From: Siderastrea siderea
Lineage: Eukaryota > Cnidaria > Anthozoa > Scleractinia > Rhizangiidae
Assembly (NCBI GenBank): GCA_964030785.1
Contig: OZ034971.1
Location: forward strand, 46,848,078-46,912,077
DNA length: 64,000 nt
Direction of reading: 5' to 3'
Below the pieces are notes generated by a model that made no database searches, had not been told where the DNA came from, and saw only the letters and a program-made list of their open reading frames with translations. Both the position numbers and the translations under genes were made by a program. The number at the start of each line of letters is the position of its first letter. Position 1 is the first letter of the stretch. Of the stretch, positions 38,165 through 59,797 are shown piece after piece.

Positions 38165-38520
38165 AGTAGTAAGGGTAGACGATCTGGGTCATTGAATCAA
38201 AAAGACCCACCCCCCCAATTTTTTAAACCAATGAGAGACTCGTGCCATTCCTTTTTATCATGTGATCCCGGTCAAAGGAATGGACCAATGAGCGTTGGGG
38301 TCAAAGGTCATTCAAGATGGCGTCTGATGGTGGGGGTGTGATTTGGGTGGGGCAACCGCTGACCAGGATGGGAAAAAGGATCGCGGGCTCATCCAAGATG
38401 GCGTCTGGTGGTGGGGGTGTGATTTTTGGGGGATAACCGCTGACCCAAGTGGGGAAATCGCGGGCGCAGCAGCTGGACGACATAAAGAAGAGACTGGGAT
38501 GGTTTGGAAATGGTTTTTAA

Positions 38521-39225
38521 TTAGGTTTGACAATCATCATCTGACAAGGGATCGGAGGTGGTCTGACAGAGACCGCAACAATGTTCGTCGGGTTTGATGA
38601 CACACCCTGCGTCTATACAACGTTGACAAGTGACACTGGTATCCCAAGGGGTGGGTTTCCAAGTGGTATCGGTATTGACGGGTAAGACTTGTTGACAAAT
38701 CTTGCAGGGATCGCGAATGTCGTCTCGCTCACACCAATGGAAAGAAGGGAAGTTGGGTTGGACGTCGTGGTCTTTTTTCTGTGGAAGATTGTGTTCGAGA
38801 CCTTGAAACCATCGATCGAGTGTGCGTTGTTTGACTTGAAGGTCTTGATTTTTTTCTTGGTAATCGCCCGGGTAATAACACCCTGGATGAAAATGTCCTT
38901 TGCACCAAGCTTTGACAAAGGCGTGTGTGTCGATGGAGGTTTTGGGTGAATTGTTACAGAGCAGAAGTCCTTCGGTGGTTCGACGTTGTTGAAGGATGGC
39001 ATCGATATTCAAGGGGACAAAATGTTGGTAGATGGTGCATGGAACGGTGGGATTTTCTTGATGATAACGGGAATGGGCCAAGACGACTTCTCCTTTGTAT
39101 TTTTTCTTGCCGATGGTTTGCGTGGGATGATAATTCAGTGGCATTTCTTCGAGGAGGAGATCCATTTTGCTGCCGAGATTAAGATTCCGTATAATGCGTC
39201 GGACTTCATTGGCCAGGTCCTCCAT
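38521..39225 (-). CDS. TIR-borne Cys-rich protein, left copy
   Basis: 234 codons from MEDLANEVRRIIRNL. The open frame extends 47 codons further upstream, but that part is an out-of-frame reading of an SFYVTL-gene fragment, so the internal ATG at 39225 is preferred. The C-terminal third has paired cysteines (CERDDIRDPCKIC, CQRCIDAGC, CCGLC), suggesting a zinc-binding fold; a middle segment has KAWCKGHFHPGCYYPGDY. No family recognised. It lies wholly in the TIR, transcribed outward, and an identical copy sits in the other TIR, so the virus carries two doses of it. A regulator or DNA-binding protein is a guess only. Confidence 0.7.
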   Translation of the reverse strand: MEDLANEVRRIIRNLNLGSKMDLLLEEMPLNYHPTQTIGKKKYKGEVVLAHSRYHQENPTVPCTIYQHFVPLNIDAILQQRRTTEGLLLCNNSPKTSIDTHAFVKAWCKGHFHPGCYYPGDYQEKNQDLQVKQRTLDRWFQGLEHNLPQKKDHDVQPNFPSFHWCERDDIRDPCKICQQVLPVNTDTTWKPTPWDTSVTCQRCIDAGCVIKPDEHCCGLCQTTSDPLSDDDCQT

Positions 39226-39226
39226 G

Positions 39227-39439
39227 CTGGGTCGGGTAAGAAATGAAGGAAGGCATGGCGTGGCGTTGACTTTTTCTAGAGAGTTGAAGGGTGATGACGG
39301 TGTTGCCTGATTTGAAGGGAGCGGGTTGTCCATTGGCTGTTTGAATGTCAATAGTGATGGTGTCAAAGATGTTTTTGCGTAGGGAGTAGTATGGGGGGTC
39401 GATATGGGTAGTTGTATCGAAAAGGCCTACCCCCCACAT
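39227..39439 (-). pseudogene. SFYVTL-family C-terminal fragment in left TIR
   Basis: The frame reads IDIQTANGQPAPFKSGNTV and then LQLSRKSQR, nearly identical to the C-terminus of the complete paralog at 41666-42718. It lacks the rest of the gene, runs on past the original stop position, and overlaps the upstream extension of the TIR gene in another frame. It appears to be a duplication of a gene end captured into the TIR. Confidence 0.8.
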
Positions 39440-39715
39440 TCCATTCTGATGACGTCACAAAGCGATGGGACTTTGTATGGAAAAGGCCTACCCCTCGAGT
39501 TTGATAGGAATTTGGGATGGAGAAGACCCAACCCCTGCAGTTTGTGTATGGAAATGACGTCACCACCTGGTGAAGTAGTATAGCCCGTCTGACTAGATCT
39601 GAACTCGGCTTGTGATTGGTCGAGAGCCAAATCCAAGATGGCGGCTAGAGGTTTTTTGTATGGAAAAGACCCACCCCTAAACAATCAGAAGTGATGATCA
39701 GAAGTGATGACGTCA
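39420..39715. promoter_or_regulatory. TIR regulatory cluster: CRE sites and AAAAGRCCYACCCC repeats
   Basis: Three perfect CRE palindromes TGACGTCA (39449-39456, 39555-39562, 39708-39715) alternate with copies of a AAAAGRCCYACCCC-like motif (39420-39434, 39480-39493, 39521-39534, 39663-39678; a fifth at 38199-38216 near the terminus). YY1-like AAGATGGCG occurs at 39635, 38314 and 38395. This lies upstream of the outward-transcribed TIR gene and reads as a promoter/enhancer. Binding is inferred from consensus only. Confidence 0.55.
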
Positions 39716-40654
39716 TCAGAATGGACTGTTGTTGGAAATGAAGAGTTCACGTGTTTTTGTTTGGAAAACCGCTGACCGGTCTAGGAAAAGGAGATCGCGG
39801 GCTCAGATCAGCAAAGAGAGGACATTTCGTGACGCTTACATGACGTAGGGGAATCACCCTCTGGCTAGGGTGGGAAACCGCTGACCAGTTGGTTGAAAAA
39901 AAGGGGATCGCGGGCTCAAAGGGTTGGGGTTCATACAGAGGTTTGATACCGATCGGATTTTTGTCGATACCGAGGTTCGATACCCCTCTCTTTTTTCCGA
40001 TCCCGATTCGATGAGATGGTGGTGTTGGTGGGCAGCAGCAGCGGCGGCGGCGGCGGCGGCGGCGGCGGGCGCGCGCGCGCGCGCGGGGAATCGGCGGCAG
40101 CGGTGCGCGCTTGGCGCACGCTGTGGGGGAAACCAAGATCTTTTTAATGTGAGTTCGAATCCCGGTCGGGGGTGGAAAAAAAAATTTTTTTTTGAAAAAA
40201 GCATGGAAATTTTTTTTTCCGGGTCGAAGCGAGTAGGAGACAATGGATGGAAGAGTGTTTCTTGGGGATTTGGGTGGGAGGGTTTTTTTTGGGTTAGAAG
40301 CGATCGATCGATCGATCGATCGAGTTCGGCTCGGTTTGAAAAACAAAAATCCCTTTTTTAAAAAACAAAACAAAAGAGAGTTGATTGGTTTTATTTGGAT
40401 GACACAGGTTTTTTATTCATGTCAAGGTAGCCTGTGGACTCTGTCATGATCCTTCTTTTCTTCCCCTGGAGTTCTGTGTTGTTGTGAAGGAAACAAAATG
40501 ATCACCAAGCTGTCAACAGATTGCTTGCTTGCTTGCTTCACGTTCATTGAAATTGACTGGTGAAGGCTTCTTCTTCTTGTTTGTCATGGGCCAGAATAGT
40601 TGTGACGGTTTCGGTAATATCGTCCCACCAGTTCTAGTGCTGATAAAGATGGTT

Positions 40655-41170
40655 TCAAGCTTGAGACTGGATCCATTGGTAAAACAAATAGGTTTCTTGT
40701 TTGGGACAATGGTGGGTGGGTTTCGCGTGACGACCGCAGGTTAATCCTACATCAAACCCCATGGCGATGAGTTTCTCGACTTTAGGACATCCAAAGTCTT
40801 CCAAGTTAATGCAAGGAATCTGTAGCTCGTTTAGTAGATTCTTTTCCAAATATCCTCCCTTGTAAGCTACCATGTATTGGTGTTGCGTTCTGCAACGATG
40901 ATAGGCTGACTCGATCATGGTTTTGACCAGATGTTGAGGTAAGGCTTTTTCTTGCTTGCTCGATTCAAAGCGTAAGCCGTGAATATGATGGTAGATATAG
41001 TTGACCGTTTTACGATCTCGCTTTTCCAACGAGAGGTAAGGCAACTTGTTTTCCAAGAACCAGCTGAAACTCCCGTGCTGTAAACTGTAAACACCCATTT
41101 CCCTTACAATAAACGGTTGATGGTTCACTTGATACCCATCCAAATCGACAATCATACAGATTTGTTCCAT
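40655..41170 (-). CDS. predicted exonuclease-like (RNase H-fold) protein
   Basis: 171 residues. N-terminus MIVDLDGYQV followed by FIVREMGVYSL fits the first strand pair of a DEDD-type exonuclease fold with acidic residues at D9 and D11. A middle block reads QYMVAYKGGYLEKNLL and INLEDFGCPKV, and the end has CGRHAKPTHHCPKQETYLFY QW. I recall a family of animal and mobile-element proteins with the same order (DLxG, K-G-x-x-K, NLExxGCPK, H-x-CxxxE). No biochemical role is proven. It is the innermost gene next to the left TIR and is divergently oriented from 41378-42718. Confidence 0.6.
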   Translation of the reverse strand: MEQICMIVDLDGYQVNHQPFIVREMGVYSLQHGSFSWFLENKLPYLSLEKRDRKTVNYIYHHIHGLRFESSKQEKALPQHLVKTMIESAYHRCRTQHQYMVAYKGGYLEKNLLNELQIPCINLEDFGCPKVEKLIAMGFDVGLTCGRHAKPTHHCPKQETYLFYQWIQSQA

Positions 41171-43209: not shown

Positions 43210-43566
43210 TTACAATTTTAAGCGTTTCTTGGCTTGCATGATTTTTTTGACCACGCGTTCCGTCTTGGTTTTCTTGCCGGGTAACCGATCAATGGCTTGG
43301 ATCATCTTGGTATCGGCTTTCCATTTGTCTTGCAAATTCTTGGCACGGCTGTAATCAATGTCGTGTTGTTTCGCAATTTGGTCCAAGCGATTGATCCCGG
43401 GATCCCCCCGTTTCAGACGTTTGGCTAAATGCGTGCCAGGGCCCATGTACTGATAGCCGGGCCAATGAAATTCTTTGCCGGTTTTAGCGATCCATTTTTG
43501 GACATCCAAGGCCCCTCCACGTTGACGGCGTTTCCGTTTCACGCCCCGTCTCCTCTTGGTGGGCAT
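43210..43566 (-). CDS. PLA2-domain virion protein with RRQRGG motif
   Basis: 118 residues from MPTKRRRGVK. A basic head ends KRKRRQRGGAL. Then comes a parvovirus VP1-type phospholipase A2 domain: YQYMGPGTHLAKRLKRGDPG is the Ca-binding loop (YxGPG), and IAKQHDIDYSRAK carries the His-Asp catalytic pair. In parvoviruses this domain breaches endosomal membranes during entry; here that role is inferred from the fold. It is the last gene of the minus-strand late block, 4 bp after the stop of the preceding gene. Confidence 0.8.
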   Translation of the reverse strand: MPTKRRRGVKRKRRQRGGALDVQKWIAKTGKEFHWPGYQYMGPGTHLAKRLKRGDPGINRLDQIAKQHDIDYSRAKNLQDKWKADTKMIQAIDRLPGKKTKTERVVKKIMQAKKRLKL

Positions 43567-43570
43567 CTTT

Positions 43571-44212
43571 TTACTCACTGTCGTAATCCAATCGACGTCG
43601 TAACTTTTTGCCTCGGTGCCAATCTTCCCACCCGGGTAAGGGTTTCAATCGTTCCACTTCACGGGAGACGCCTTTGCGTTTGCCTTTGCCTTTACCACTC
43701 TCGGCTAACTTTTTTTCCAAGGCCTTGCGCTCTTCTCGAATGGCTTCTAAGCGCGACCGGGTATCCCCTCGACTGGTGGAAGGGCTCCCTTTCTTGACAA
43801 TCTTACTGGTGGTGGCTGCTCCTTTGCCTTTCTTGGTGGCAGGGCTAATGGGTGGTTTGGGGCTCGACGGGCTGCCTTTTATCATGCGCTTCAACCATTG
43901 TTCCACGGGGCCGGTCACCAAATCCCCGGCCTCTTCCTCTTCGTCTTCGCCTGGCGGGCCACCCGGGGCCCCCACGCCCACGCCTCCAGGAAATTGACGA
44001 ATGCGTTTCGTTAACTTGGTTAATTCTTGACTCAACGGTTTGGTTTGAGCATTGACCACGGCCGGAGGCAATTGGGGGTTGGCTAACAAGACATGTTTTT
44101 TGGCGGCGAGCGTCGCGGCTTTGTTCAACAAGGCATTTTCGGTGAGTTCTCCTTTGTAATATTGAATGAGTTGTTCCAAGTCCTTGTGGGGGATCATGTA
44201 GACCTCGTCCAT
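43571..44212 (-). CDS. conserved Polinton-type coiled/charged protein
   Basis: 213 residues. The N-terminal 60 residues (MDEVYMIPHKDLEQLIQYYK, GELTENALLNKAA) match a pattern I associate with proteins beside Polinton capsid genes. The middle is disordered (QFPGGVGVGAPGGPPGEDEEEE) and the C-terminus basic and helical (SRLEAIREERKALEKKL). The FPGGV and PGG sites could be protease sites. Structural or core role inferred from position in the late block. Its start overlaps the end of the preceding gene by 19 bp. Confidence 0.65.
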   Translation of the reverse strand: MDEVYMIPHKDLEQLIQYYKGELTENALLNKAATLAAKKHVLLANPQLPPAVVNAQTKPLSQELTKLTKRIRQFPGGVGVGAPGGPPGEDEEEEAGDLVTGPVEQWLKRMIKGSPSSPKPPISPATKKGKGAATTSKIVKKGSPSTSRGDTRSRLEAIREERKALEKKLAESGKGKGKRKGVSREVERLKPLPGWEDWHRGKKLRRRLDYDSE

Positions 44213-44897: not shown

Positions 44898-45079
44898 GAG
44901 TGCAACAACACACGTTGAAGGGCTTTGTTTTGTTTGATGGCATCTCGCGTCTCTTTATAGCCTTGACGGGTATTGCGTTTGAAATCTTGCCACCAGCCAC
45001 GGCCTTGTTGTCTGATTAAACCCCCTCCTCTTTGACGTCGTTTCCTTTTTCTGCGTCGTCGTCGTCGTTGGACGGCCAT
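44885..45079 (-). CDS. Arg-rich mini-protein (pX-like), RRQRGG motif
   Basis: 64 residues from MAVQRRRRRRKRKRRQRGGG, followed by a helical basic tail (DFKRNTRQGYKETRDAI). Same basic head plus RRQRGG as its neighbours. It overlaps the 3' end of the membrane-protein gene by 64 bp. Probable DNA-condensing core component, inferred. Confidence 0.7.
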   Translation of the reverse strand: MAVQRRRRRRKRKRRQRGGGLIRQQGRGWWQDFKRNTRQGYKETRDAIKQNKALQRVLLHSWYP

Positions 45080-45702
45080 GGTTCTAAGAGCGTGGGACTG
45101 GGAGGGAGCGGCTTTTTATCTATCCAATAGTCTTTGGGTCTCAAGGGACGAGGACATCCGTCCACATAGCATAGGGCTTCCACGGGTTGGTACATAAAAT
45201 GACGGCGGTAATCTTGTAGACACCGTTTGGGTAACGGAGGGGTGAAATCCACAATGGTATCATCCAACGTTTGCATCTTGATCAAAAACCTTTCCAGGTC
45301 CTCGAAAGGAACACCACGCACATAGGTTTTCAATTCGGTCAAGGCTTTGGCATACGTGGTAAACGCAAACCGACTCATGGTCACTTTAAACCGGTATTGT
45401 TTAAAATCGTTCCATCCTTTGACCACCGTACCCACGGCCGCCAAACACGCCACCAAAGTACTGTTTTCCAAGAGGGGTCCGGCAATCATGCCCGCTGCCA
45501 TCAGGAGTAATGCCAAGCCATTGAACAAGGCGTTGACAAACTTGAAATGATTCAGCATTTTCCGATAACACCACCACTGTTTGTGGTAAAAGGCATACAA
45601 GGAATCCATGCGTTGCAAAAGTTCCGGTTTGAATTTTTCACCGTGGCTTCTGGACAACGGTCCATTCAGCAAGGATACCACGGTTTTTCTTTTACTTGAC
45701 AT
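45016..45702 (-). CDS. two-helix membrane protein of the late block
   Basis: 228 residues from MSSKRKTVVSLLNGPL (ATG at 45702, 5 bp after the ATPase stop; a longer frame would run into the ATPase gene). Residues about 50-95 hold two hydrophobic segments (FVNALFNGLALLLMAAGMIA; STLVACLAAVGTVV) with a short turn. The rest is helical and charged, with an acidic tail (DDDDAEKG). No family recognised. A capsid-internal membrane or entry protein is possible. Confidence 0.65.
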   Translation of the reverse strand: MSSKRKTVVSLLNGPLSRSHGEKFKPELLQRMDSLYAFYHKQWWCYRKMLNHFKFVNALFNGLALLLMAAGMIAGPLLENSTLVACLAAVGTVVKGWNDFKQYRFKVTMSRFAFTTYAKALTELKTYVRGVPFEDLERFLIKMQTLDDTIVDFTPPLPKRCLQDYRRHFMYQPVEALCYVDGCPRPLRPKDYWIDKKPLPPSPTLLEPWPSNDDDDAEKGNDVKEEGV

Positions 45703-45707
45703 CCTGA

Positions 45708-46364
45708 TCACTGCGACGTTTTTTGATACGTGCGCGTCCATCCCTCGTCTTTTAAGACGTGGCTCAACAAGCGTTGTTGATCGGACGAGGCCGGGTGCAA
45801 ATCCAACACCAAATACCCATAAGGCCGTGCAGTGGCGTGATGAAACGTCTCTAACGTGTCTTTCCACGTGGTCGGAAACGATTGCAGCATGACGTTGCGT
45901 ACCCCTAATTGATCCCGGGGGTTCTTGAACGCCACAATGTAATGGGCATTGCGGGATATACTTTTCGCATAGCGACCCACGGGAAACATGTCTTGACACA
46001 AGTACAACACCGTCACCCCTTGATGATGTGAATGTTTGGTGAATAAATCCAACACGCGTTTATCGTGACTCCCTTCATCCATTAAATCATCCAAGACCAG
46101 GACCCCCTGTCCTTGAGGAAACCATTGCACCAAGGCGTCATGATCGGGAATCCCTTCGTGAAACAGCACCCCTTGATCTTGCATGCCTCGAAATCGATCT
46201 TGCCAGGCCCCATAACAATAATGCACTTGAGTCGGCGGGGTGTCAAACAAATCCGGGTTCTCTACCAAGAGTTTTTCCGTAAACACGGTTTTCCCACATC
46301 CCGAAGGACCCACCACCAAGATAGAGGAGGGGGTATGAAAACGAAACGGTTTCGCCGTTTGCAT
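45708..46364 (-). CDS. A32/FtsK-HerA-type genome packaging ATPase
   Basis: 218 residues from MQTAKPFRFHTPSSILV. Walker A is VVGPSGCGKTVF (about residues 18-29). Walker B is GVLVLDDLMDEG. A sensor-like region HHQGVTVLYLCQDMFPVG and NAHYIVAFKNPRD, typical of Polinton, adintovirus and poxvirus A32 packaging ATPases, follows. The length fits the short Polinton form. The start was set at 46364 because the upstream extension runs into the tRNA-like gene. Hydrolyses ATP to drive DNA into capsids, by family. Confidence 0.9.
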   Translation of the reverse strand: MQTAKPFRFHTPSSILVVGPSGCGKTVFTEKLLVENPDLFDTPPTQVHYCYGAWQDRFRGMQDQGVLFHEGIPDHDALVQWFPQGQGVLVLDDLMDEGSHDKRVLDLFTKHSHHQGVTVLYLCQDMFPVGRYAKSISRNAHYIVAFKNPRDQLGVRNVMLQSFPTTWKDTLETFHHATARPYGYLVLDLHPASSDQQRLLSHVLKDEGWTRTYQKTSQ

Positions 46365-46383
46365 GATGATGATACTACCCAGG

Positions 46384-46391
46384 GGAAAAAA
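46384..46391 (-). terminator. Pol III T-run after the tRNA-like gene
   Basis: On the minus strand CCTTTTTTTTCCCC lies 17 bp after the 3' end of the tRNA-like gene, as a Pol III terminator would. Confidence 0.55.
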
Positions 46392-46407
46392 AAGGCACCT
46401 TTTTATT

Positions 46408-46500
46408 GGAGTCGGTGGGACTCGAACCCACGCACAATCCCCCACACCTGTTTTTTTTTTTTAGGGGATCCAAAGGCTCTACCAACTGAGCTACGACTCC
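46408..46500 (-). tRNA. tRNA-like gene with expanded anticodon arm
   Basis: 93 nt. A perfect 7-bp acceptor stem (GGAGTCG/CGACTCC), D-arm with A-box (TAGCTCAGTTGGTAGAGC) and a perfect 5-bp T-stem with B-box (GTGGGTTCGAGTCCCAC) are intact. Between D-arm and T-arm lie about 45 nt instead of 22-23: CTTTGG, then ATCCCC and GGGGAT, which can pair around a loop with a run of 12 A. No canonical anticodon stem-loop is obvious, so amino-acid identity cannot be given. It sits between protease and ATPase genes. Alternatives: tRNA with intron, pseudo-tRNA, or a Pol III transcript with another role. Confidence 0.65.
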
Positions 46501-46530: not shown

Positions 46531-47070
46531 TTAACCATTACATTGATGATACGGATGACAACAAAGTTGATACCATCTGGCTTCTTGGCCTACAATGAGT
46601 TGCTGAAGGCGTTGACCGGCTTGATGGTCATTGCTTACATAATCATGATCGGAAAACTCATTTAAAAATTCTTGCAAGGTCCGGCCACGGGCTTTGGCTT
46701 TCAAGTACAACAACGCATAATCGCCACAGGACTTGCTTGAGATGGCTTGGAGGGACTTGCCATTGGTCACCACATATTTCCAATGTTGAACAATCCACGC
46801 TCGTAACGGGGCAGCTTGCACGTACGTGTCCAATGGCAAGGCATAACTGTCGAGGACTTCACACACGTTTCCCTCGGTCCACACCGCTAACCAATGTTGT
46901 CCGGGTTGATCGTGCGGGTCGGTGTTGACAATGTACCCTTGCGGAGTGGTCTTGACAGGACTCTTGGGTAATCGATCACAGGCCACTGTCCCGTAAAACA
47001 TCGGTTTCAATTGGGGGTCGTCACGGGCTAAATAATCCAACTGCACATTATTCAAGGCCAAGTGTTCCAT
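46531..47070 (-). CDS. adenain-like cysteine protease (maturation protease)
   Basis: 179 residues. The triad order of adenovirus-type (C5/Ulp-like) proteases is visible: His in PGQHWLAVWTE, Asp in VCEVLDSYALPL, Cys in SSKSCGDYALLYL, with a likely oxyanion Gln before it (KSLQAISSKSC). The N-terminus PMFYGTVACDRLP also fits. Length is normal for Polinton PRO. By family it cleaves capsid and core precursors in the particle. Candidate substrates are the neighbouring RRQRGG proteins. It lies just downstream of the capsid gene in the same direction. Confidence 0.9.
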   Translation of the reverse strand: MEHLALNNVQLDYLARDDPQLKPMFYGTVACDRLPKSPVKTTPQGYIVNTDPHDQPGQHWLAVWTEGNVCEVLDSYALPLDTYVQAAPLRAWIVQHWKYVVTNGKSLQAISSKSCGDYALLYLKAKARGRTLQEFLNEFSDHDYVSNDHQAGQRLQQLIVGQEARWYQLCCHPYHQCNG

Positions 47071-47079: not shown

Positions 47080-48480
47080 TCAGTGTTGGTAAATGTTGTA
47101 CAACACGGCTCCGTTGCGGTCAATCTCCAGCAAGTTCTCAAATTCCCCATACACGAGCACAGTTATATTGGTAGCGGGCGCGGCTCCAAATTCCAAACTG
47201 AGTTGTAAATCGCCTGTTTGCTTGGGGTTGAGGGTTTGACTGTCAACACATCCATTGGCCACATTGTCATACATGTACAAGGTACAATTTTTAGCTTGGC
47301 CCCAATCTTCTAGTTCCACCATATTGCCTTTCTTTTTACACCAGGCTCCACTGGCTTGCAGAAAACGGAAGTAGCCTAGATTATCTCGGGTGCCATTGTC
47401 ATGCACCAACTGCAGGGTTTCATAAGGGTATTCTTCTCCTTTGACAATCTGTTTAATGGAGGTCAGCCCAAATTTCTGAAAGCAGAAGGGATCTCGGGTC
47501 ACATCGCCATTGAAGGCGCGGCTGTCCACTAACCCCACAATCAATCGGTCAGGCACTCTGTTTTGAAACAGGTTGGGGATATCAAAGCGGACCAGGTTGC
47601 CTTGCATGCTAAAGGTCCGGATTTCACTGCGGACGGTGGGGTAGGCAGCCACTTCGCCTTCATTGTGTCTTTTTTCAGACAAACTCTTGTAGATGGCGTC
47701 ATTCAAACGCAGTTGACAGAGATGAAACCGTAGTTTGACATCGCCTTCCATCAATCGGCCGGCTAGAGCCACGCCATTGAAAAACAGGTTCGGGCCATTG
47801 AAATGAAATTTCATCTTGATTTCGATGCCAGGCACCAACAGTTTGCCTGTGTGAAACACTTCCAAGTACGGGGTAAACACCAGACTGTGGGTGACACCTC
47901 CAGCATACTTGGCGGTTTCGGCTACCATGGCGGCCAAGGCTCCTTTGTGATTGGCACTGAGATTCCTGTAGTCTGCATGCGGTCCAGCACTGTTGGTATT
48001 GTTGTCGGTCCATTGGGGTGGGGAATCCACTTGATTGAACCAGCCTTGGGGTCCCAACACGGTCTTGCCATCTTCTCGGTCATAATTCAGCAAGGTTTCC
48101 AGGTAAGCTTTGTAATGATAGGTGTCGGATTGAGGACTGATCAACGTGCCATTCAACTGCAAGTCAATTTGTTTGATGATGGAATGGGCCAGATTGTTGA
48201 CGGGCCACAGTTTTTCATTGGCCACCAAGTCATCGTTTGTACTTTTCTGCAATCTCAATTCCATGGTAAAGTAACTGCGTCCCAAATCCACAAAATCGTC
48301 CAACCCTGGCACAATGAATTCCATGGGATTGATACCAGTGGTGGTGGGTTGAATGGTGACCATGCGATAGGCATTGATGCTAATGTCGGTCGGCGGCACC
48401 TTGAAAATCCGTAACGCCGGGTTGATTGTCCCTTCGGAACGCGGGTGAGCCGGTGGGGTTTGCGTACTCACGTCAGGCAT
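47080..48480 (-). CDS. double jelly-roll major capsid protein
   Basis: 466 residues from MPDVSTQTPPAHP. It contains the hallmark block of Polinton capsid proteins (F54H12.2-like): EFIVPGLDDFVDLGRSYF, PVNNLAHSIIKQIDLQLNGT, LISPQSDTYHYKAYLETLLN. Later segments LVPGIEIKMKFHFN, RLNDAIYKSL and NRVPDRLIVGLVD fit the second jelly roll. The C-terminus is YGEFENLLEIDRNGAV. The length is a little under the usual 500-650. Forms the icosahedral shell in related viruses. A TATA-like box lies 54 bp upstream. Confidence 0.92.
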   Translation of the reverse strand: MPDVSTQTPPAHPRSEGTINPALRIFKVPPTDISINAYRMVTIQPTTTGINPMEFIVPGLDDFVDLGRSYFTMELRLQKSTNDDLVANEKLWPVNNLAHSIIKQIDLQLNGTLISPQSDTYHYKAYLETLLNYDREDGKTVLGPQGWFNQVDSPPQWTDNNTNSAGPHADYRNLSANHKGALAAMVAETAKYAGGVTHSLVFTPYLEVFHTGKLLVPGIEIKMKFHFNGPNLFFNGVALAGRLMEGDVKLRFHLCQLRLNDAIYKSLSEKRHNEGEVAAYPTVRSEIRTFSMQGNLVRFDIPNLFQNRVPDRLIVGLVDSRAFNGDVTRDPFCFQKFGLTSIKQIVKGEEYPYETLQLVHDNGTRDNLGYFRFLQASGAWCKKKGNMVELEDWGQAKNCTLYMYDNVANGCVDSQTLNPKQTGDLQLSLEFGAAPATNITVLVYGEFENLLEIDRNGAVLYNIYQH

Positions 48481-50673: not shown

Positions 50674-50684
50674 CTTTGTGTTCT

Positions 50685-51728
50685 TCACACCACGACCTCC
50701 CTTTTAAAGTGGAGGGTCAGGAGGGTATGCCCTTCGCCAAATGTCACGAGATCCCCATTGATTTCGGCCATTTGCGTTTCCACGATTTCCACCACTTCAT
50801 TGCGTACTGGGACATATTGAATATGTCGAGGTTCAAAGTGCGTGGTTTCTTTGGGGTGGTACTTGATTTCTCGTAAGAGATCCGTGATACGACCCCCTAC
50901 CATACTGCTGGTCCCTACATCACAATACACGTGCAAAGGACGCGTGGGAGCAAATTCCAACGGGACACGAAAGGCCCCGTTCAAATTCACAAACCGCCAA
51001 GGGCACGATAGACTCAATTTCAGATAATCCCCTTGCACTTTCCAAAAGGTGGGGTTGTTGCTGCCATCGCGGATATCCGTCGGGTTGGGAATGGTAGAAA
51101 TGCCATCCAATTCTTGCAAGAGATTGGGACCCAATCGACACTGGCCGGGGGACACTTGTTCAATCCATCCCATTCTCAGGGCCAAGGTTCTGCCCCATGA
51201 CACGTACGCCACTTGTCGTTTGTAATCCACATTGGTAGTATTCAACAACAAATCCCCTTCGGTGGTCCATTCAAAGGTCGGGGCCAATTTGACACCATTG
51301 TCCTCGGCCCATTTGTTTTTGGGGACGGTTTGTTTCGCCCGTTCTTGCTGGTAACGATACACCAGTTGGTGAAAAAATTGAACTCCCGTCAACGAGGTCA
51401 TCTCCTTTCTCATATCTCGCCCGTAGACAGTGAGTTCGCGGCGTTCATGGTACCAGCGATCGTTCCCTTGATCGTCTTGGACATACACCCGTTCGTGCCA
51501 TCGTACGTACAACAGAGGATGGGAATCGCCCACGCCTCCTTCTTCCGCTAGCACTGGAATGGTGGGTAACGATAAACTCGCCATACCCACCATCCATCCT
51601 CGTCCCATAAATCGAATGGGTTTGGGCAATCGGTTTCTGAAATGATGACTCTTGTTCCCAGGAAACTCTTTGGTACTCGCATGACTCATCAACGTCACGT
51701 AAAACGAAGAATTGGGCACCCACGTCAT
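50685..51728 (-). CDS. SFYVTL-family putative virion protein, paralog 2
   Basis: 347 residues, MTWVPNSSFYVTLMSHASTK. Same layout as paralog 1: FRNRLPKPIRFMGRGWMVGM, CRLGPNLLQEL, PLHVYCDVGTSSMVGGRITD LLREIKYH, VRNEVVEIVETQMAEI, HTLLTLHFKR. It is clearly closer to paralog 1 than to paralog 3, so a tandem duplication is inferred. Located 12 bp upstream of paralog 1 and 7 bp after the integrase stop. Confidence 0.75.
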   Translation of the reverse strand: MTWVPNSSFYVTLMSHASTKEFPGNKSHHFRNRLPKPIRFMGRGWMVGMASLSLPTIPVLAEEGGVGDSHPLLYVRWHERVYVQDDQGNDRWYHERRELTVYGRDMRKEMTSLTGVQFFHQLVYRYQQERAKQTVPKNKWAEDNGVKLAPTFEWTTEGDLLLNTTNVDYKRQVAYVSWGRTLALRMGWIEQVSPGQCRLGPNLLQELDGISTIPNPTDIRDGSNNPTFWKVQGDYLKLSLSCPWRFVNLNGAFRVPLEFAPTRPLHVYCDVGTSSMVGGRITDLLREIKYHPKETTHFEPRHIQYVPVRNEVVEIVETQMAEINGDLVTFGEGHTLLTLHFKREVVV

Positions 51729-51734: not shown

Positions 51735-52883
51735 CTAGTCGCGTCGTCGTCGTCGTCTTTTGTTTTTCTGGGGTGGGCTTGTCTCTTTCTTTGTCTGGGG
51801 CGGTCGGAGGGAGGTCACATCTCCCCTAGCAATCCAACTGTTGTACTTGTCCGGCCACCCTTTCCACTTGACCAACAGGCGATCATTTTGACGCTTAAGT
51901 ACCTTTTCGATACGAAACACATCGGACACGTGTACTTTTTGTAAATCCTCCTTGTAAAACGTGCCATCGACGGGCGTGTCATCCCATTCGCGAATCTTGT
52001 AGGTGGGCACAGGACCCGGCACCACACGATGCACGACAAACACTTCTTCGGTCCAACCGGGTAAATACCCTTTTTCAAACGTACGATGAATCTTGTTGAG
52101 ACGCACACGATCCCCTACTTTGAATTTGGGTTGGGAGTGTTTTCTTTTCAAACGTTTCTCGTACAGGCGTTTCCACACGGCTTCATCGTTTTCCCACGTC
52201 ACGTCTTGAGGGGCCATACCAATACTTCGATGACGTGTGGCATTGTAGCCTTGGACCAACTCGGGTAACACATTGTCAAATTTCAACGTGTTGGCAGCAG
52301 TGAAATAGCGGTACAAACGTTCTTTCAAGGTGCGGTTAAATCGTTCCACCACACTCGCTTTGGCATCCCCTTGGGTAGAAAAATGCTGGATTCCTTGCTC
52401 CTCGAGCCAACGTTGAAACGTGCGATTGTAAAATTCCTTCCCTCGATCCGTTTGCAATCGATTGGGACGTCGACCTCCTTGTTTCAAAATCTTGTCAAAC
52501 GCTTGGACCAAAGCCACCCCCGTTTTGCCTTTCAACGGTTGCACCCACGCGTATTTCGACAACACATCCAACACCGTCAGTAAATACCGAATGCCACGAT
52601 TATACTTGGCCAAGGGTTGTACTTCCACCAAATCCGCCACCCATTGATCGTCTAAGCCTCCTACGATCACGGGCAAGGTTGGAAAACGACGACGTCGAGG
52701 TTTATGCAACGTGTAGGCCAAATCCCGTTCCAAGATCCGTTGGGCTTTTTTCAAGGGGAGGTGATGGGCCTTGGCAAACCGTTGCACGCCTCCTAAACTG
52801 CCCGGGGCTCGAGGATCGTGGTAACGGGTCAACCATGATTGCGAGACATCGAGTTTGGTTCGTTTGGTCTTTCGAGGCGCCAT
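51735..52883 (-). CDS. retrovirus-type integrase with C-terminal chromodomain
   Basis: 382 residues from MAPRKTKRTKLD (a slightly longer frame opens only with GTG). N-terminal zinc-like helical region; rve core with catalytic D in WVADLVEVQ, D in RLQTDRGKEFYNR and E in ASVVERFNRTLKERLYRY; then FKVGDRVRLNK and a chromodomain, FRIEKVLKRQNDRLLVKWKG WPDKYNSWI, near residues 320-350. This is the standard Polinton INT. It would carry out end processing and strand transfer, consistent with the 6-bp duplication. The chromodomain may bias integration to marked chromatin. Basic C-terminal tail. Confidence 0.93.
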   Translation of the reverse strand: MAPRKTKRTKLDVSQSWLTRYHDPRAPGSLGGVQRFAKAHHLPLKKAQRILERDLAYTLHKPRRRRFPTLPVIVGGLDDQWVADLVEVQPLAKYNRGIRYLLTVLDVLSKYAWVQPLKGKTGVALVQAFDKILKQGGRRPNRLQTDRGKEFYNRTFQRWLEEQGIQHFSTQGDAKASVVERFNRTLKERLYRYFTAANTLKFDNVLPELVQGYNATRHRSIGMAPQDVTWENDEAVWKRLYEKRLKRKHSQPKFKVGDRVRLNKIHRTFEKGYLPGWTEEVFVVHRVVPGPVPTYKIREWDDTPVDGTFYKEDLQKVHVSDVFRIEKVLKRQNDRLLVKWKGWPDKYNSWIARGDVTSLRPPQTKKETSPPQKNKRRRRRRD

Positions 52884-53200
52884 ACTTTCTGACACTCATC
52901 CCACAAGGTGTGTATGGAAGGGATGGTGTGGGGATGCGCCTTTTGAATGATTCGATACCATCGCCATGCGTTCGGATGAGCTTTTAACCATAAGACAAAC
53001 ACCACCCGTCGATACAGGTTGCGGTCTACATGGGTTTCTTCAAAGATCTGGAGAGGAGGCGTATCCTCGGGACATGGGGGAATGGGGATTTTGACACCGG
53101 GTTGATGATCATATAAGACTTGGCAAAGGGATTGATGGCATTGCCATTGCACCAGGGACAACAAACCCTCCCACGCATAACACAACCACACAGACTCCAT
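52829..53200 (-). CDS. hypothetical protein upstream of integrase
   Basis: 123 residues from MESVWLCYAWEGLLSL (ATG; the frame opens two codons earlier with GTG). Trp- and His-rich with a PPCPEDTPPLQIFEE link and RRVVFVLWLKAHPNAWRWYR helix. Its end overlaps the integrase start by 55 bp. Weakly similar to the small protein at 41378-41596. Family unknown. Confidence 0.55.
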   Translation of the reverse strand: MESVWLCYAWEGLLSLVQWQCHQSLCQVLYDHQPGVKIPIPPCPEDTPPLQIFEETHVDRNLYRRVVFVLWLKAHPNAWRWYRIIQKAHPHTIPSIHTLWDECQKVWRLERPNEPNSMSRNHG

Positions 53201-53396: not shown

Positions 53397-54068
53397 TTAC
53401 TTGGTCGTGTCTTGTCTTTGTTTTTTTCGGTTCTTGGGTTTCAAGGGTTTGTCGGCCCATTGAAAGAAAGGACATCGATCCTCGGGTGTTTCTTTGCATG
53501 TGAAATAAGGGCGGTTGGGGTTGGCTTGGGATCGGCTGATTCGTAAGACCACGGGTTCTTCACAGTCACACACCAGGGTTCTTTTGAGATAATCAGGATG
53601 GAGTTTTTCATTAATGATCTTGAGATAAGTGGCGATTTGATCTTGATGACAAAAGAGGCCACATTTCTTTTCTTGGCATTTGATGTAAGTGTCTCCTGTG
53701 GTTTGGGCTTGAAAGCAAGTTAGGTCTGTTTGATGCATAGGGCAGACAACGGATTGACAAGCTTGTTCCATAGGCGGTAGTTGTACTTGATAACTAGCAG
53801 CAGGCGGATTTAACAAATTGAGAATATTGTCACCATTGAATAAGTCATCCATATTGATGAGCGGTGTTGGTGGCGGCGGCGGTACTGGTGGTGGTGACAA
53901 TGTGGTCGTTGTAGGTGTTGACGGTACTGGTGGTGGTGAAGAAGGATCCACTTGGGGTGGTTTTTTGATTTTGATTTTTTTGTCTTTTTTGGACTTTTTC
54001 TCCGTGGGTGCAGGGGGTAAAGCAGTGACCATCTTTTCGAGTTGTTGCAAAGGTCTCTTCGTGGCCAT
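53397..54068 (-). CDS. GRF-type zinc-finger protein
   Basis: 223 residues from MATKRPLQQLEKMVTALP. The first 90 residues are basic then Pro/Thr-rich and disordered. Two zinc modules follow: VCPMHQTDLTCF...YIKCQEKKCGLFCHQDQ, and a GRF-like finger, LVCDCEEPVVLRIS...RPYFTCKETPEDRC PFFQWAD. GRF fingers bind single-stranded nucleic acid in Topo III, APE2 and NEIL3. A role in viral DNA replication or repair is inferred. A TATA-like box (CCTATAAAAT, 54111-54120) is about 45 bp upstream. Confidence 0.75.
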   Translation of the reverse strand: MATKRPLQQLEKMVTALPPAPTEKKSKKDKKIKIKKPPQVDPSSPPPVPSTPTTTTLSPPPVPPPPPTPLINMDDLFNGDNILNLLNPPAASYQVQLPPMEQACQSVVCPMHQTDLTCFQAQTTGDTYIKCQEKKCGLFCHQDQIATYLKIINEKLHPDYLKRTLVCDCEEPVVLRISRSQANPNRPYFTCKETPEDRCPFFQWADKPLKPKNRKKQRQDTTK

Positions 54069-54181
54069 GGTGAATTGAAGAGAGAAAGAATGAAAAAAAA
54101 AGAACACGCTATTTTATAGGCGATGATGACGTGATGTTGACGTGATCTTAGCTAGGATTGGTGGAGACAAAAAAATAAGGG

Positions 54182-54700
54182 TCAACGTTCAGGTCCATCG
54201 GGTATGTCGATGCCCGCCCATCCACGTTGACGTAAGGTTGCACGTGACCACCCAAAAATGTTATCCACGTCTTCATGTGTCAAACCCAAAAGTTCATAGG
54301 TGAACGTACTAGATTGGTGTCGAAAAGACACGATTTCTTCTAAAATTTGTTCTGTCACGATGTCGGGGCTCGTGATGTGCACGATGAATTCGATGTCGTT
54401 AGGTTGCCAACACGGGACGTCCATGTGATATTGGGTCAGTAGATTGCGCCACGATTGATACACCAAATCCAAAGACAGATGGCGTAACCCTTCTTTGATG
54501 GCCTCATTAATATGGCGCATATGAAGTAATACTTCTTCACTGTAAACGGGTTGAGTGGGTGGTTCTAGATCGTGCACGTGACGATGAATATGTTTGAGAA
54601 TGGCCACGATCCAACATCGTTTCCATCGGCATTCGACCATTTCTTGATAAAAACGAGTGTTATAATCGATATTGCCGCTTGCAGTAAAAGGAGATTCCAT
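54182..54700 (-). CDS. hypothetical helical protein
   Basis: 172 residues from MESPFTASGNIDYNTRFYQE. The frame extends upstream, but that part is low-complexity Phe/Tyr-rich. Mostly alpha-helical by eye, with WKRCWIVAILKHIHRHVHDL and a C-terminal LTHEDVDNIFGWSRATLRQR GW. No family recognised. It diverges from the plus-strand block at 54853. Confidence 0.55.
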   Translation of the reverse strand: MESPFTASGNIDYNTRFYQEMVECRWKRCWIVAILKHIHRHVHDLEPPTQPVYSEEVLLHMRHINEAIKEGLRHLSLDLVYQSWRNLLTQYHMDVPCWQPNDIEFIVHITSPDIVTEQILEEIVSFRHQSSTFTYELLGLTHEDVDNIFGWSRATLRQRGWAGIDIPDGPER

Positions 54701-54852
54701 TTTAGGGACTTGTTTTGTTTTTTGGTCTCTCCATACATTGAACAAATAAAAAGTGATGAAAAAGTGATAAAAAGTGATGAAAAAGAAGCTGTCAATCAAA
54801 ACAGTCTATATATCACCTTTCTATCTTTTCAACGCATCATTTTTTTGTTAGC
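54701..54852. promoter_or_regulatory. divergent promoter region
   Basis: 150 bp between divergent genes with AAAAAGTGATGAAAAAGTGA-type direct repeats (GTGATGAAAAA three times, 54750-54784) and TCTATATAT at 54806-54814, about 40 bp before the plus-strand ATG. Confidence 0.5.
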
Positions 54853-55380
54853 ATGGCAAGTAACACCGAGTCCGACGATGATCTTAATGACTTTATGGAT
54901 TTATGGGAACAGCAAGGTGGTGCTGTACCGCAACGACGCAACCATTATCAATTTCGACGTGTTAAATTCCGAGAACGTCAAGCCAAGAGCTATGGAATCA
55001 CACGTACAAGCTATCACTTACGCGTGGAAAACCCGCCAGAGAGTTTTCCAGAAGGGCATGGCAATATTGTGCGCGCGTTTGAAGAAGGATTGGCGGATCA
55101 AATCGAAGATCTCACGCGTAATATGCCGGACCATGACAGAATACAAATCTATTTATCTTCCAACCGACTTCAATCGGTCCACACCTCAGCCAATGTAACT
55201 ATCGGCGATTGGCGAGACCCCTTATCCGGGGCCCGCCGCATTTTGCATCAGATTAGTAAAATGTTGAACTCAAATGAGAACTTTGAAGTCGACGACAGTT
55301 TGCAGTTGGATGTGACGCACATCACCATGCCAGATGGTGTAACACCTGTCGAGCTCGTTTCGAGACGGAAGAGGATATAG
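54853..55380 (+). CDS. PolB-upstream-type module as a stand-alone protein
   Basis: 175 residues, MASNTESDDDLNDFMDLW. Layout: acidic N-terminus, YHLRVENPPESFPEGHGNIV, AFEEGLADQIEDLTRNMPDHD, RIQIYLSSNRLQSVHTSANV, ILHQISKMLNSNENFEVDDS L, DVTHITMPDGVTP. This order (helical 'F.eal.d.l..l..nD.vr..l....L..pi..pf.....l....++..+..vlqS.e.f.ldds....+.hv.mP.G') is one I associate with the region preceding the DNA polymerase B domain in cnidarian Polinton PolB genes. Here the protein stops shortly after (SRRKRI) and no polymerase follows. Recognition is from memory and needs a search. Confidence 0.55.
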   Translation: MASNTESDDDLNDFMDLWEQQGGAVPQRRNHYQFRRVKFRERQAKSYGITRTSYHLRVENPPESFPEGHGNIVRAFEEGLADQIEDLTRNMPDHDRIQIYLSSNRLQSVHTSANVTIGDWRDPLSGARRILHQISKMLNSNENFEVDDSLQLDVTHITMPDGVTPVELVSRRKRI

Positions 55381-55450: not shown

Positions 55451-56152
55451 ATGCCGACGAGTCACTACCACATCTACAGCGGAGGAGCCATTGGCGTCGA
55501 CGAATATGCAGAACAATGCGCTAAAGAATATGGCATGCAGATGCATATTATCATACCACCCCAACACAGTCGAAGCAAATTTATCACACCACTCCGTCAA
55601 CAAGATCTCAACCAAGCCGAGCCGCACTTAAAACGAGCCGGAGAAAGAAGTGGCAAACACTTGTTTACTCCAAATACGTTTTCACGCCATCTTCAACTAC
55701 GCAATTTTCACATCGTCAAACCTGCCACCATCGTGTACGCTTTTGGTTATTTCCAACACACAAATGACACTAACTACACAGCAGCACGTGACATTTACCA
55801 TGACACCACCTTGAAAAGGCAAAGCATTCAAGGAGGAACGGGATGGACGGTGCAATTGGCTGTCGATCAGCACAAACAAATTTATTTTTACAACATACCA
55901 GAAAAACGATGGTACAAAAACCATCAAGATCATTATTATTGGAACGAAAATCAATGGACACCTTACAGTGGATTTATTCCAATGCAAGGATCACCCACGC
56001 TTCATAAACACAGCGCCGTAGTAGGAACAAGACACCCCCCACCAGACACTTTGGCCGAAGTCAAAAGGCTCTTTCAAACCACCAGTTCTTTAGAAAACAT
56101 TGTTGATAAAAACAGTGATCTTTACAGTCACCTTCAAGAACATGGCGACTGA
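55451..56152 (+). CDS. SLOG/DprA-type nucleotide-binding protein
   Basis: 233 residues. N-terminus HYHIYSGGAIGVDEYAEQCA has the Rossmann-type 'SGGAxGxD' motif of SLOG-superfamily proteins (DprA, LOG, YpsA, DUF2493). Later IVKPATIVYAFGYFQ and QSIQGGTGWTVQLAVDQHKQIYFYNI resemble the second part of marine-animal and viral relatives ('KGGTGWg.efA...kpl.vfdq....W'). SLOG proteins bind nucleotides, nucleotide-derived signals or ssDNA. The role here is unknown; replication or defence-signal handling are possibilities. It overlaps the next gene by 11 bp. Confidence 0.6.
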   Translation: MPTSHYHIYSGGAIGVDEYAEQCAKEYGMQMHIIIPPQHSRSKFITPLRQQDLNQAEPHLKRAGERSGKHLFTPNTFSRHLQLRNFHIVKPATIVYAFGYFQHTNDTNYTAARDIYHDTTLKRQSIQGGTGWTVQLAVDQHKQIYFYNIPEKRWYKNHQDHYYWNENQWTPYSGFIPMQGSPTLHKHSAVVGTRHPPPDTLAEVKRLFQTTSSLENIVDKNSDLYSHLQEHGD

Positions 56153-56594: not shown

Positions 56595-57053
56595 ATGGAC
56601 TACTGCAAGAATTTAGATCCCAAAACCTTCAACAACACTCATGACTACATATTAGAACTGGTTCGACAAGGTCTACAAGCTGGTTATGATCTCGAAGACG
56701 TGACCGAGCACTACAAAGAATTGATTCAAGATGAAGCCACCGCCATCATGAAAAATACCGAACACAACGAACTCAAAAAACAAATCCAAAGAGATTTGGA
56801 CAATTTAGCGGTCATTGACAGAAACAACACCATTGTCTTTCCTTTGGAACTAGCAGGACGCACCTACAAGACTGATGAACGAGACCAGTATTTTGAGGAG
56901 ATTTTACAAAAGAGACTCGAACGACGACACAAAGTCAACAAACTGCGTGAAAGTGTTCTCCAACATAACTTGGACGACATTACAGAACATGTCAAAACCA
57001 TTCTTGACCATGACAAACAAGAAGAAGAAGCCTTTACCAGCCAATTCAAATGA
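56595..57053 (+). CDS. hypothetical helical acidic protein
   Basis: 152 residues from MDYCKNLDPKTFNNTHDYIL. Highly charged and helical throughout (LEDVTEHYKELIQDEATAIM; ERRHKVNKLRESVLQHNLDD). Last gene before the right TIR; its C-terminal 45 codons have a second, truncated copy at 57278-57416. No family recognised. Confidence 0.55.
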   Translation: MDYCKNLDPKTFNNTHDYILELVRQGLQAGYDLEDVTEHYKELIQDEATAIMKNTEHNELKKQIQRDLDNLAVIDRNNTIVFPLELAGRTYKTDERDQYFEEILQKRLERRHKVNKLRESVLQHNLDDITEHVKTILDHDKQEEEAFTSQFK

Positions 57054-57277: not shown

Positions 57278-57416
57278 GATTGGAGCGGCGACACAAAGTC
57301 AACAAACTCCGAGAAAGTGTCCTCCAACATAATTTGGACGATATTACCGAAACCGTCACAACTATTCTGGCCCATGACAAACAAGAAGAAGAAGCCTTCA
57401 CCAGTCAATTTCAATG
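57278..57416 (+). pseudogene. duplicated 3' end of the 56595-57053 gene
   Basis: Encodes ERRHKVNKLRESVLQHNLDD again, with changed residues afterwards and the same EEEAFTSQF end and stop. There is no start or upstream part. The right TIR begins inside it (57336), so its last 80 bp also occur in the left TIR (40545-40625). It shows that TIR growth copied a neighbouring gene end. Confidence 0.8.
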
Positions 57417-58522
57417 AACGTGAAGCAAGCAAGCAAGCAATCTGTTGACAGCTTGGTGATCATTTTGTTTCCTTCACAACAACACAGAACTCCAGGGGAA
57501 GAAAAGAAGGATCATGACAGAGTCCACAGGCTACCTTGACATGAATAAAAAACCTGTGTCATCCAAATAAAACCAATCAACTCTCTTTTGTTTTGTTTTT
57601 TAAAAAAGGGATTTTTGTTTTTCAAACCGAGCCGAACTCGATCGATCGATCGATCGATCGCTTCTAACCCAAAAAAAACCCTCCCACCCAAATCCCCAAG
57701 AAACACTCTTCCATCCATTGTCTCCTACTCGCTTCGACCCGAAAAAAAAAATTTCCATGCTTTTTTCAAAAAAAAATTTTTTTTTCCACCCCCGACCGGG
57801 ATTCGAACTCACATTAAAAAGATCTTGGTTTCCCCCACAGCGTGCGCCAAGCGCGCACCGCTGCCGCCGATTCCCCGCGCGCGCGCCGGCGCCCGCCGCC
57901 GCCGCCGCCGCCGCCGCCGCTGCTGCTGCCCACCAACACCACCATCTCATCGAATCGGGATCGGAAAAAAGAGAGGGGTATCGAACCTCGGTATCGACAA
58001 AAATCCGATCGGTATCAAACCTCTGTATGAACCCCAACCCTTTGAGCCCGCGATCCCCTTTTTTTCAACCAACTGGTCAGCGGTTTCCCACCCTAGCCAG
58101 AGGGTGATTCCCCTACGTCATGTAAGCGTCACGAAATGTCCTCTCTTTGCTGATCTGAGCCCGCGATCTCCTTTTCCTAGACCGGTCAGCGGTTTTCCAA
58201 ACAAAAACACGTGAACTCTTCATTTCCAACAACAGTCCATTCTGATGACGTCATCACTTCTGATCATCACTTCTGATTGTTTAGGGGTGGGTCTTTTCCA
58301 TACAAAAAACCTCTAGCCGCCATCTTGGATTTGGCTCTCGACCAATCACAAGCCGAGTTCAGATCTAGTCAGACGGGCTATACTACTTCACCAGGTGGTG
58401 ACGTCATTTCCATACACAAACTGCAGGGGTTGGGTCTTCTCCATCCCAAATTCCTATCAAACTCGAGGGGTAGGCCTTTTCCATACAATATTCCCATCGC
58501 TTTGTGACGTCATCAGAATGGA

Positions 58523-58735
58523 ATGTAGGGGGTAGGCCTTTTCGATACAACTACCCATATCGACCCCCCATACTACTCCCTACGCAAAAACATCTTTGAC
58601 ACCATCACTATTGACATTCAAACAGCCAATGGACAACCCGCTCCCTTCAAATCAGGCAACACCGTCATCACCCTTCAACTCTCTAGAAAAAGTCAACGCC
58701 ACGCCATGCCTTCCTTCATTTCTTACCCGACCCAG
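58523..58735 (+). pseudogene. SFYVTL-family C-terminal fragment in right TIR
   Basis: Mirror copy of 39227-39439. Contains IDIQTANGQPAPF and LQLSRKSQR in the frame of the paralog; truncated on the 5' side. Confidence 0.8.
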
Positions 58736-58736
58736 C

Positions 58737-59441
58737 ATGGAGGACCTGGCCAATGAAGTCCGACGCATTATACGGAATCTTAATCTCGGCAGCAAAATGG
58801 ATCTCCTCCTCGAAGAAATGCCACTGAATTATCATCCCACGCAAACCATCGGCAAGAAAAAATACAAAGGAGAAGTCGTCTTGGCCCATTCCCGTTATCA
58901 TCAAGAAAATCCCACCGTTCCATGCACCATCTACCAACATTTTGTCCCCTTGAATATCGATGCCATCCTTCAACAACGTCGAACCACCGAAGGACTTCTG
59001 CTCTGTAACAATTCACCCAAAACCTCCATCGACACACACGCCTTTGTCAAAGCTTGGTGCAAAGGACATTTTCATCCAGGGTGTTATTACCCGGGCGATT
59101 ACCAAGAAAAAAATCAAGACCTTCAAGTCAAACAACGCACACTCGATCGATGGTTTCAAGGTCTCGAACACAATCTTCCACAGAAAAAAGACCACGACGT
59201 CCAACCCAACTTCCCTTCTTTCCATTGGTGTGAGCGAGACGACATTCGCGATCCCTGCAAGATTTGTCAACAAGTCTTACCCGTCAATACCGATACCACT
59301 TGGAAACCCACCCCTTGGGATACCAGTGTCACTTGTCAACGTTGTATAGACGCAGGGTGTGTCATCAAACCCGACGAACATTGTTGCGGTCTCTGTCAGA
59401 CCACCTCCGATCCCTTGTCAGATGATGATTGTCAAACCTAA
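58737..59441 (+). CDS. TIR-borne Cys-rich protein, right copy
   Basis: 234 codons from MEDLANEVRRIIRNL, protein identical to that of 38521-39225. The identity of both copies suggests recent gene conversion or replication-linked TIR copying. Upstream lie the same CRE and AAAAGRCCYACCCC motifs. It is transcribed outward, towards the host junction. Function unknown; four cysteine pairs suggest zinc binding. Confidence 0.7.
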   Translation: MEDLANEVRRIIRNLNLGSKMDLLLEEMPLNYHPTQTIGKKKYKGEVVLAHSRYHQENPTVPCTIYQHFVPLNIDAILQQRRTTEGLLLCNNSPKTSIDTHAFVKAWCKGHFHPGCYYPGDYQEKNQDLQVKQRTLDRWFQGLEHNLPQKKDHDVQPNFPSFHWCERDDIRDPCKICQQVLPVNTDTTWKPTPWDTSVTCQRCIDAGCVIKPDEHCCGLCQTTSDPLSDDDCQT

Positions 59442-59797
59442 TTAAAAACCATTTCCAAACCATCCCAGTCTCTTCTTTATGTCGTCCAGCTGCTGCGCCC
59501 GCGATTTCCCCACTTGGGTCAGCGGTTATCCCCCAAAAATCACACCCCCACCACCAGACGCCATCTTGGATGAGCCCGCGATCCTTTTTCCCATCCTGGT
59601 CAGCGGTTGCCCCACCCAAATCACACCCCCACCATCAGACGCCATCTTGAATGACCTTTGACCCCAACGCTCATTGGTCCATTCCTTTGACCGGGATCAC
59701 ATGATAAAAAGGAATGGCACGAGTCTCTCATTGGTTTAAAAAATTGGGGGGGTGGGTCTTTTTGATTCAATGACCCAGATCGTCTACCCTTACTACT

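Follow-up and report, generated by a model that had tools for sequence, protein, structure and literature searches.

The window analysed here is a 64,000-nucleotide stretch of the genome of the coral Siderastrea siderea (C6:46848078-46912077 of an 831-Mb, 402-contig assembly; C plus a number denotes a contig and L plus a number a fetched locus). Positions 38165-59797 are occupied by a recent, apparently intact element of the Polinton/adintovirus type, which lacks a protein-primed DNA polymerase (PolB) and, judging from homology, has kept the priming part of that enzyme as a separate gene for a terminal protein (TP). Its ends are those of a Polinton/Maverick (adintovirus), with long terminal inverted repeats (TIRs) and a 6-bp target-site duplication. 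The TIR arms of about 2.46 kb align without gaps over 1,307 and then 1,153 nt, with a 1-nt length difference between the two blocks, and a single substitution is found across the first 1,306 nt. Such near-identical arms, together with the intact duplication, point to a very young insertion. An initial annotation of the window had described these termini, the integrase, capsid, ATPase and protease genes, and a copy that is recent and otherwise intact. This description is borne out: the capsid gene is open, the ATPase and protease stand as candidates below the Pfam cut-off, and no PolB relic was found in the window. The features, in order, are as follows (ORF, open reading frame).

38159..38164, left target-site duplication, ATGGCT
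38165..40625, + strand, left TIR, with the tip AGTAGTAA, a repeated triplet
40655..41170, − strand, DnaQ/DEDDh-fold exonuclease-like protein with conserved E..CxxH..HC residues
41603..42718, + strand, protein of ~350 aa, distantly similar (23-28%) to sister sequence that occupies the position of the 50685 gene
43210..43578, − strand, phospholipase A2-like protein (PF08398, above Pfam cut-off)
43571..44212, − strand, uncharacterised ORF conserved in sister pieces
45016..45999, − strand, SLATT-like protein (PF18181, below cut-off)
45708..46445, − strand, packaging ATPase candidate, AAA/A32 (below Pfam cut-off)
46531..47070, − strand, adenovirus-type cysteine protease candidate (PF00770, below cut-off)
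47080..48480, − strand, major capsid protein candidate of the F54H12.2-like family, by sequence family
49630..50688, − strand, protein of ~350 aa resembling (by reading) the 50685 product, probably of the virion
50685..51728, − strand, protein of ~350 aa, probably of the virion
51735..52895, − strand, retroviral-type integrase with chromodomain (PF00665, E 7.6e-13; PF00385, E 8.6e-6; both above cut-off)
53397..54107, − strand, GRF zinc-ribbon protein (above Pfam cut-off), present in 20/20 fetched TP loci
54182..54799, − strand, uncharacterised ORF, present in 20/20 fetched TP loci
54853..55380, + strand, stand-alone TP, homologue of the PolB N-terminal (D1/TP) domain
55451..56152, + strand, DprA/ShosA-like SLOG protein (PF02481 below cut-off; ShosA E 1.5e-7)
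56595..57053, + strand, uncharacterised ORF with weak partial homologues in PolB-bearing sister pieces and weak Pfam/PHROGs matches
57336..59797, − strand, right TIR
59798..59803, right target-site duplication, ATGGCT

Polintons were named self-synthesizing, each carrying its own PolB. Is the polymerase really missing here? The six frames of the element contain no DTDS or (D/Q)(F/V/Y)xS(L/M)YP pattern, and its longest stop-to-stop frame does not exceed 485 aa. Searches by tblastn with a 1,371-aa sister PolB and a second PolB of 1,340 aa matched the element in the TP region only. A hidden Markov model of the PolB body, run against 634 six-frame segments of the element, gave a best E of 1.2, compared with 1e-290 or lower in 4/4 PolB-bearing pieces kept out of its building as positive controls. 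All three approaches agree with the initial annotation, which had reported no PolB. Among 30 ORFs scanned against Pfam, no helicase, primase or polymerase rises above the cut-off; the sole weak helicase-type match (PF00910, 19.6 bits with a cut-off of 21.5) coincides with the P-loop of the ATPase candidate (245 aa). The alternative replicases of Polinton-like viruses (PLVs), namely PolA-S3H, AEP-S3H and pPolB-S1H, were not found in these 30 ORFs either. In place of the protein-primed PolB expected of a Polinton/Maverick (adintovirus), only a separate homologue of its TP domain is present, and this gene the initial annotation, right about PolB itself, had overlooked.

The TP product is 71% identical over 161 aa to the N-terminus of the PolB at C5:27144398, where a cognate TP-PolB fusion survives, and 28% identical to that of the L009 PolB; homology to PolB stops near 55335. 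By this homology the element is not devoid of replication genes, having kept what reads as a PolB-derived TP. A candidate residue for linkage to the DNA 5' end is S140, which lies in a predicted loop and is serine in 34 of the 36 aligned rows with a letter at that place. A relative of the C5 fusion in a 505-aa frame sits in C5:16194832-16221728, an element with window-like ends.

Is this one damaged copy or a lineage? In a genome-wide TP count, 150 matches were scored out of 1,437 candidates, and four fragment rows were dropped. The window TP subfamily accounts for 97 of the scored matches, 92 in frames of at most 260 aa and 5 in longer ones (350, 427, 505, 650 and 1,340 aa). There are at least 92 stand-alone TP loci, 78-100% identical; 87 have no internal stop, and 82 of these span the domain. 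The remaining 49 scored TPs are 30-34% identical and lie in frames of at least 1,300 aa (35), of 500-1,300 aa (9) or shorter (5). For PolB, scoring covered 34 of 3,256 candidates, and 22 of the 34 had no internal stop. Counting scored matches, the 18 elements with both ends mapped comprise 8 that are TP-only (window included), 8 with PolB, 1 with a long-frame TP, 1 with neither and 0 with both. The 91 scored capsid genes divide into 26 with a stand-alone TP no more than 15 kb away, 19 with a scored PolB or fused TP, 46 with neither and 0 with both; the distance from capsid gene to stand-alone TP is 6.08-6.37 kb in 25 of the 26, and 24 of these 26 capsid genes are free of stops. Other PolB-less copies with the same gene order, which the initial annotation had proposed to look for in this genome, do exist. 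Five of the seven other both-ended TP-only elements share the window's order, and their flanks outside the TP-exonuclease interval measure 2.9-4.6 kb each, TIR included, leaving little room for a 4.1-kb PolB (element lengths from the genome-wide end mapping may be ~281 bp short per end). The two others, at C1:61.78 Mb and C2:68.02 Mb, have a gene order unlike the window's, and the flank-length argument covers the five. A variant arrangement is seen in the TP-only loci L037-L040 and L044, in which the short tail of TP differs and exonuclease-end or TIR sequence comes next, in place of the SLOG gene; L037-L040 are nearly identical and have thus recently multiplied.

Is the separate TP maintained? 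Pairwise ratios of nonsynonymous to synonymous change (dN/dS) over the TP domain of 19 of the 20 fetched loci (L035 was left out for a premature stop) come to 0.26 among the 11 loci of the window-like group; between stand-alone groups that have diverged (dS 0.25-0.60) they lie at 0.15-0.28. The stand-alone TP is under purifying selection. Taken with the 92 loci, the constant gene spacing and the lack of any scored PolB in the eight both-ended TP-only elements, this supports the suggestion of the initial annotation that the lack of PolB is a stable trait of a multicopy lineage and not the decay of a single copy. The loss of PolB is preserved in L044, where homology to L049, the locus of the cognate PolB, runs through L049 405-858 (the TP) and then continues directly at 4203-4282 (E 1.5e-5 in a permissive pairwise search). 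This junction is the scar of a ~3.3-kb internal deletion that removed most of PolB behind the TP. Short antisense PolB relics lie downstream of the SLOG gene in L042 and L031 (E 8e-9 and 7e-6). These remains indicate that the TP-only trait arose by deletion of PolB and was then maintained; the L044 scar is taken to mark how the trait began, given that the truncated gene later spread and stayed under selection, and the cognate C5 fusion is the likeliest ancestor. PolB-bearing sisters combined with a deletion scar in the window copy had been named beforehand as a sign against a lineage trait. At the level of the lineage this sign is partly there: such sisters exist, and the TP-only relative L044 has a scar; the window copy itself shows no relic.

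The same genome holds many PolB-bearing sisters whose capsid protein is 92-97% identical to that of the window element. Seven of eight fetched capsid-sharing copies carry PolB sequence. It is open and full-length in L009 and L015, is divided between two frames in L011 and L017, and runs off the end of the piece in L013, L019 and L023; the eighth copy (L021/L022) is truncated. Across the 91 scored capsid genes, the nearest to the window's belongs to the PolB-bearing copy C1:5472649 (97%), the best TP-only one reaching 94%, and the 300-bp TIR end of the window is also nearest to PolB-bearing copies (93% and 90%). The TP and the exonuclease, in contrast, are nearest to TP-only copies (98% each). 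With different nearest relatives for its capsid/TIR blocks and its replication block, the window element is a mosaic. The motif AGTAGTA(A) is common to the tips of the window element and its two closest PolB-bearing copies, and protein-primed jump-back initiation uses a repeated triplet of this kind. The two closest PolB-bearing TIR relatives have an extra outer block of ~281 bp ending in AGTAGTAA; this block also occurs, at 89%, at both ends of the TP-only element C2:2011362-2033442 (40 of 153 candidates scored), so termini are common to at least some elements of both kinds.

How, then, might an element with a primer and no polymerase replicate? We consider it likely, from the sequence relationships above, that it represents a helper-dependent, satellite-like Polinton lineage which provides its own TP, ends, integrase and virion and obtains its polymerase in trans from PolB-bearing relatives. 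The element's own TP would prime DNA synthesis at its AGTAGTAA ends, and PolB supplied by a co-resident PolB element would extend the product, as the absence of PolB and the abundance of helpers suggest. Packaging of the DNA would use the element's own capsid, and insertion, with the 6-bp duplication, its own integrase. The priming half of the replication machine would thereby be kept and the catalytic half outsourced. A helper polymerase for TP-only elements is plausible; the cognate C5 fusion is a possible helper, though rare, and the mainstream PolBs are numerous, with a distant TP.

Several observations weigh against this proposal. The TP of mainstream PolBs is only ~30% identical to that of the window, and the cognate fusion is known from one open full-length frame, with shorter frames (505, 650 and 427 aa) at three other places. 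The match of the TP to the little-finger-like fold of a Polinton TP is weak, with Cas7-type folds tying or leading in one comparison, and the top Foldseek match is Siah1, no E being below 0.001. Of the 92 stand-alone TPs, 5 are interrupted by an internal stop and a further 5 are partial or frameshifted. The dN/dS values are uninformative in very recent groups (three copies of one group average 1.3 nonsynonymous and 0 synonymous changes), and synonymous sites are saturated in the comparison with the C5 fusion. The PolB count scored 34 of the 3,256 candidates, and some TP-only copies could conceivably hide a PolB, though the spacing speaks against it. Finally, the window tip is not positionally equal to the PolB-bearing tips; it matches the AGTAGTA site ~281 bp inside them.

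More tentatively, the element may be a satellite virus in the true sense, one that would have arisen from its own helper by deletion of nearly all of PolB save the priming domain. A cleavage-free separate TP could load the helper polymerase preferentially on satellite ends, and the lineage-linked DnaQ-type exonuclease and SLOG/SLATT proteins could bias the competition; the outcome would be a parasite by polymerase piracy that swaps capsid genes and TIRs with its victims inside animal chromosomes. This fuller scenario is possible but on balance doubtful.

Could the element simply be passive and non-autonomous, mobilised entirely by the TP, PolB, capsid and integrase of a helper, its own genes being incidental? 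The TIRs in common with PolB-bearing copies could suffice for mobilisation, yet a passive element would need neither the stop-free capsid genes found near stand-alone TPs (24/26) nor a TP under purifying selection, and we regard this as improbable. An ordinary dead or decaying Polinton, a copy that lost PolB and persists passively with the TP as a fossil exon, would be in keeping with the one deletion scar and the two loci with antisense relics. It sits badly with 92 TP loci of which 87 lack internal stops (82 of these covering the domain), with dN/dS of 0.15-0.28, with gene spacing constant across tens of copies, and with a very young window insertion that has no PolB relic; we think it very unlikely. 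Least credible is recruitment by the TP of a host polymerase or of an unrecognised replicase that one of the uncharacterised ORFs would encode. In its favour, neither Pfam nor PHROGs has a match for 54182-54799, 56595-57053 has weak ones only and the 40655 product shows a DnaQ-type exonuclease fold. Against it, no helicase, primase or polymerase exceeds the Pfam cut-off in the 30 ORFs (the weak PF00910 match being the ATPase candidate's P-loop), PolBs abound in the same genome and, to our knowledge, protein-primed synthesis is known only with PolB-type partners.

How does a helper-dependent Polinton lineage compare with known systems? Like Polintons/Mavericks and adintoviruses, the window element has TIRs, a 6-bp target-site duplication, a chromodomain integrase, a phospholipase A2, a capsid gene and candidate protease and ATPase genes, and its capsid protein is up to 97% identical to that of a PolB-bearing copy of the same genome; unlike those elements, which combine protein-primed PolB, RVE integrase and capsid module, it has no PolB and carries the TP-domain homologue as a separate gene. 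Satellite viruses such as adeno-associated virus (AAV) or virophages depend on a helper and have their own capsid. The window element, with its own capsid gene and probable helper dependence, resembles them; unlike them, it would derive from the helper's own lineage and keep a helper-type primer protein. The strict label of Polinton-like virus, given in the initial annotation, is a misfit, since the RVE integrase and the capsid module common to PolB-bearing copies mark a Polinton/adintovirus-type element that lost PolB. PLVs, as characterised in PMC11071308, share with it a capsid module and the lack of a canonical PolB; unlike it they mostly have no RVE integrase and carry PolA-S3H, AEP-S3H or pPolB-S1H, none of which was found in the window. 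That source also describes an adintovirus/Polinton of the coral Stylophora pistillata in which TP is split into its own gene and a vOTU-PolB is kept, so that the separate TP is a likeness and the absence of PolB from the window element a difference; there, a TP becoming a separate gene is also inferred for adenoviruses (PMC11071308). Mavericks make up 1.4-6.7% of three coral genomes according to PMC12005156, and PMC11071296 reports replicase-less virus contigs of other kinds. No published description of a TP-retaining, PolB-less Polinton was found in the literature searched, subscription literature being mostly outside it. That a PolB-less lineage has a selected primer protein, ~90 copies and open capsid genes suggests a replication machine divisible between elements, and the lineage provides a natural system for several questions. 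Are TP and polymerase exchangeable in trans? How did TP become a separate gene? Can satellite viruses arise directly from their helpers?

The exonuclease-like gene at 40655-41170 follows the TP-only lineage. It lies within 20 kb of 68/92 stand-alone TPs, 60 of these at 13.59-14.19 kb, and within the same distance of 0/49 distant TPs and 1/34 PolBs. The 40655 protein may belong with Maelstrom, since in one structural comparison 9nhd (a Maelstrom complex) ranks first; in another, however, DnaQ, DinG, TREX1 and the arenavirus nucleoprotein (NP) exonuclease score as high or higher, and no match to the Maelstrom family in Pfam was obtained for any of 40 members of the 40655 family. Its identity to Lassa NP (18-19%) and conserved CxxH...HC residues, which presumably correspond to those of Lassa NP, suggest a zinc-bearing DEDDh exonuclease. 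Searching PDB sequences with this ORF, with its alignment and with 54182-54799 produced no useful match, and neither did PHROGs. The genome also holds 27 divergent pairs of exonuclease-like genes separated by less than 9 kb, of which 15 are ~1.5 kb apart (for example C8:24565914-24568417, C12:35388121-35390624 and C14:7703642-7706142), perhaps small palindromic units with the gene at both ends.

For the remaining genes, the capsid candidate had 503 database matches, and among the 120 listed both named ones are from the coral Oculina patagonica; no relatives were found in IMG/VR and phage collections. Sequence-level comparison places this putative double jelly-roll protein in a family common to the window and PolB-bearing elements. 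Homologous DNA to the ATPase and protease candidates is present in PolB-bearing sister pieces, their Pfam scores staying below cut-off. The 54182-54799 ORF has no match in PolB sister pieces at E 1e-3, nor in Pfam or PHROGs. The SLATT-like (weak) and DprA/ShosA-like SLOG proteins both have homologues in PolB-bearing sister pieces, and a stretch 52% identical to the SLATT-like protein adjoins the cognate PolB in L049; SLATT and SLOG types are associated in bacterial conflict systems. The 41603-42718 gene lies at the other end, inverted, in the right-hand pieces of 7/7 PolB-bearing sisters. The TIR (39264-39376 / 58586-58698) carries a 113-nt copy, at 87%, of 42599-42711, the 3' end of that gene, which appears to be the trace of a past rearrangement. 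In the host flank, 24750-27128 and 14432-15801 hold reverse-transcriptase/integrase-like and reverse-transcriptase-like frames of other mobile elements (labels by reading), and an inverted 262-nt pair, 97% identical, flanks the element at 839-1100 / 61442-61703, probably a dispersed host repeat.

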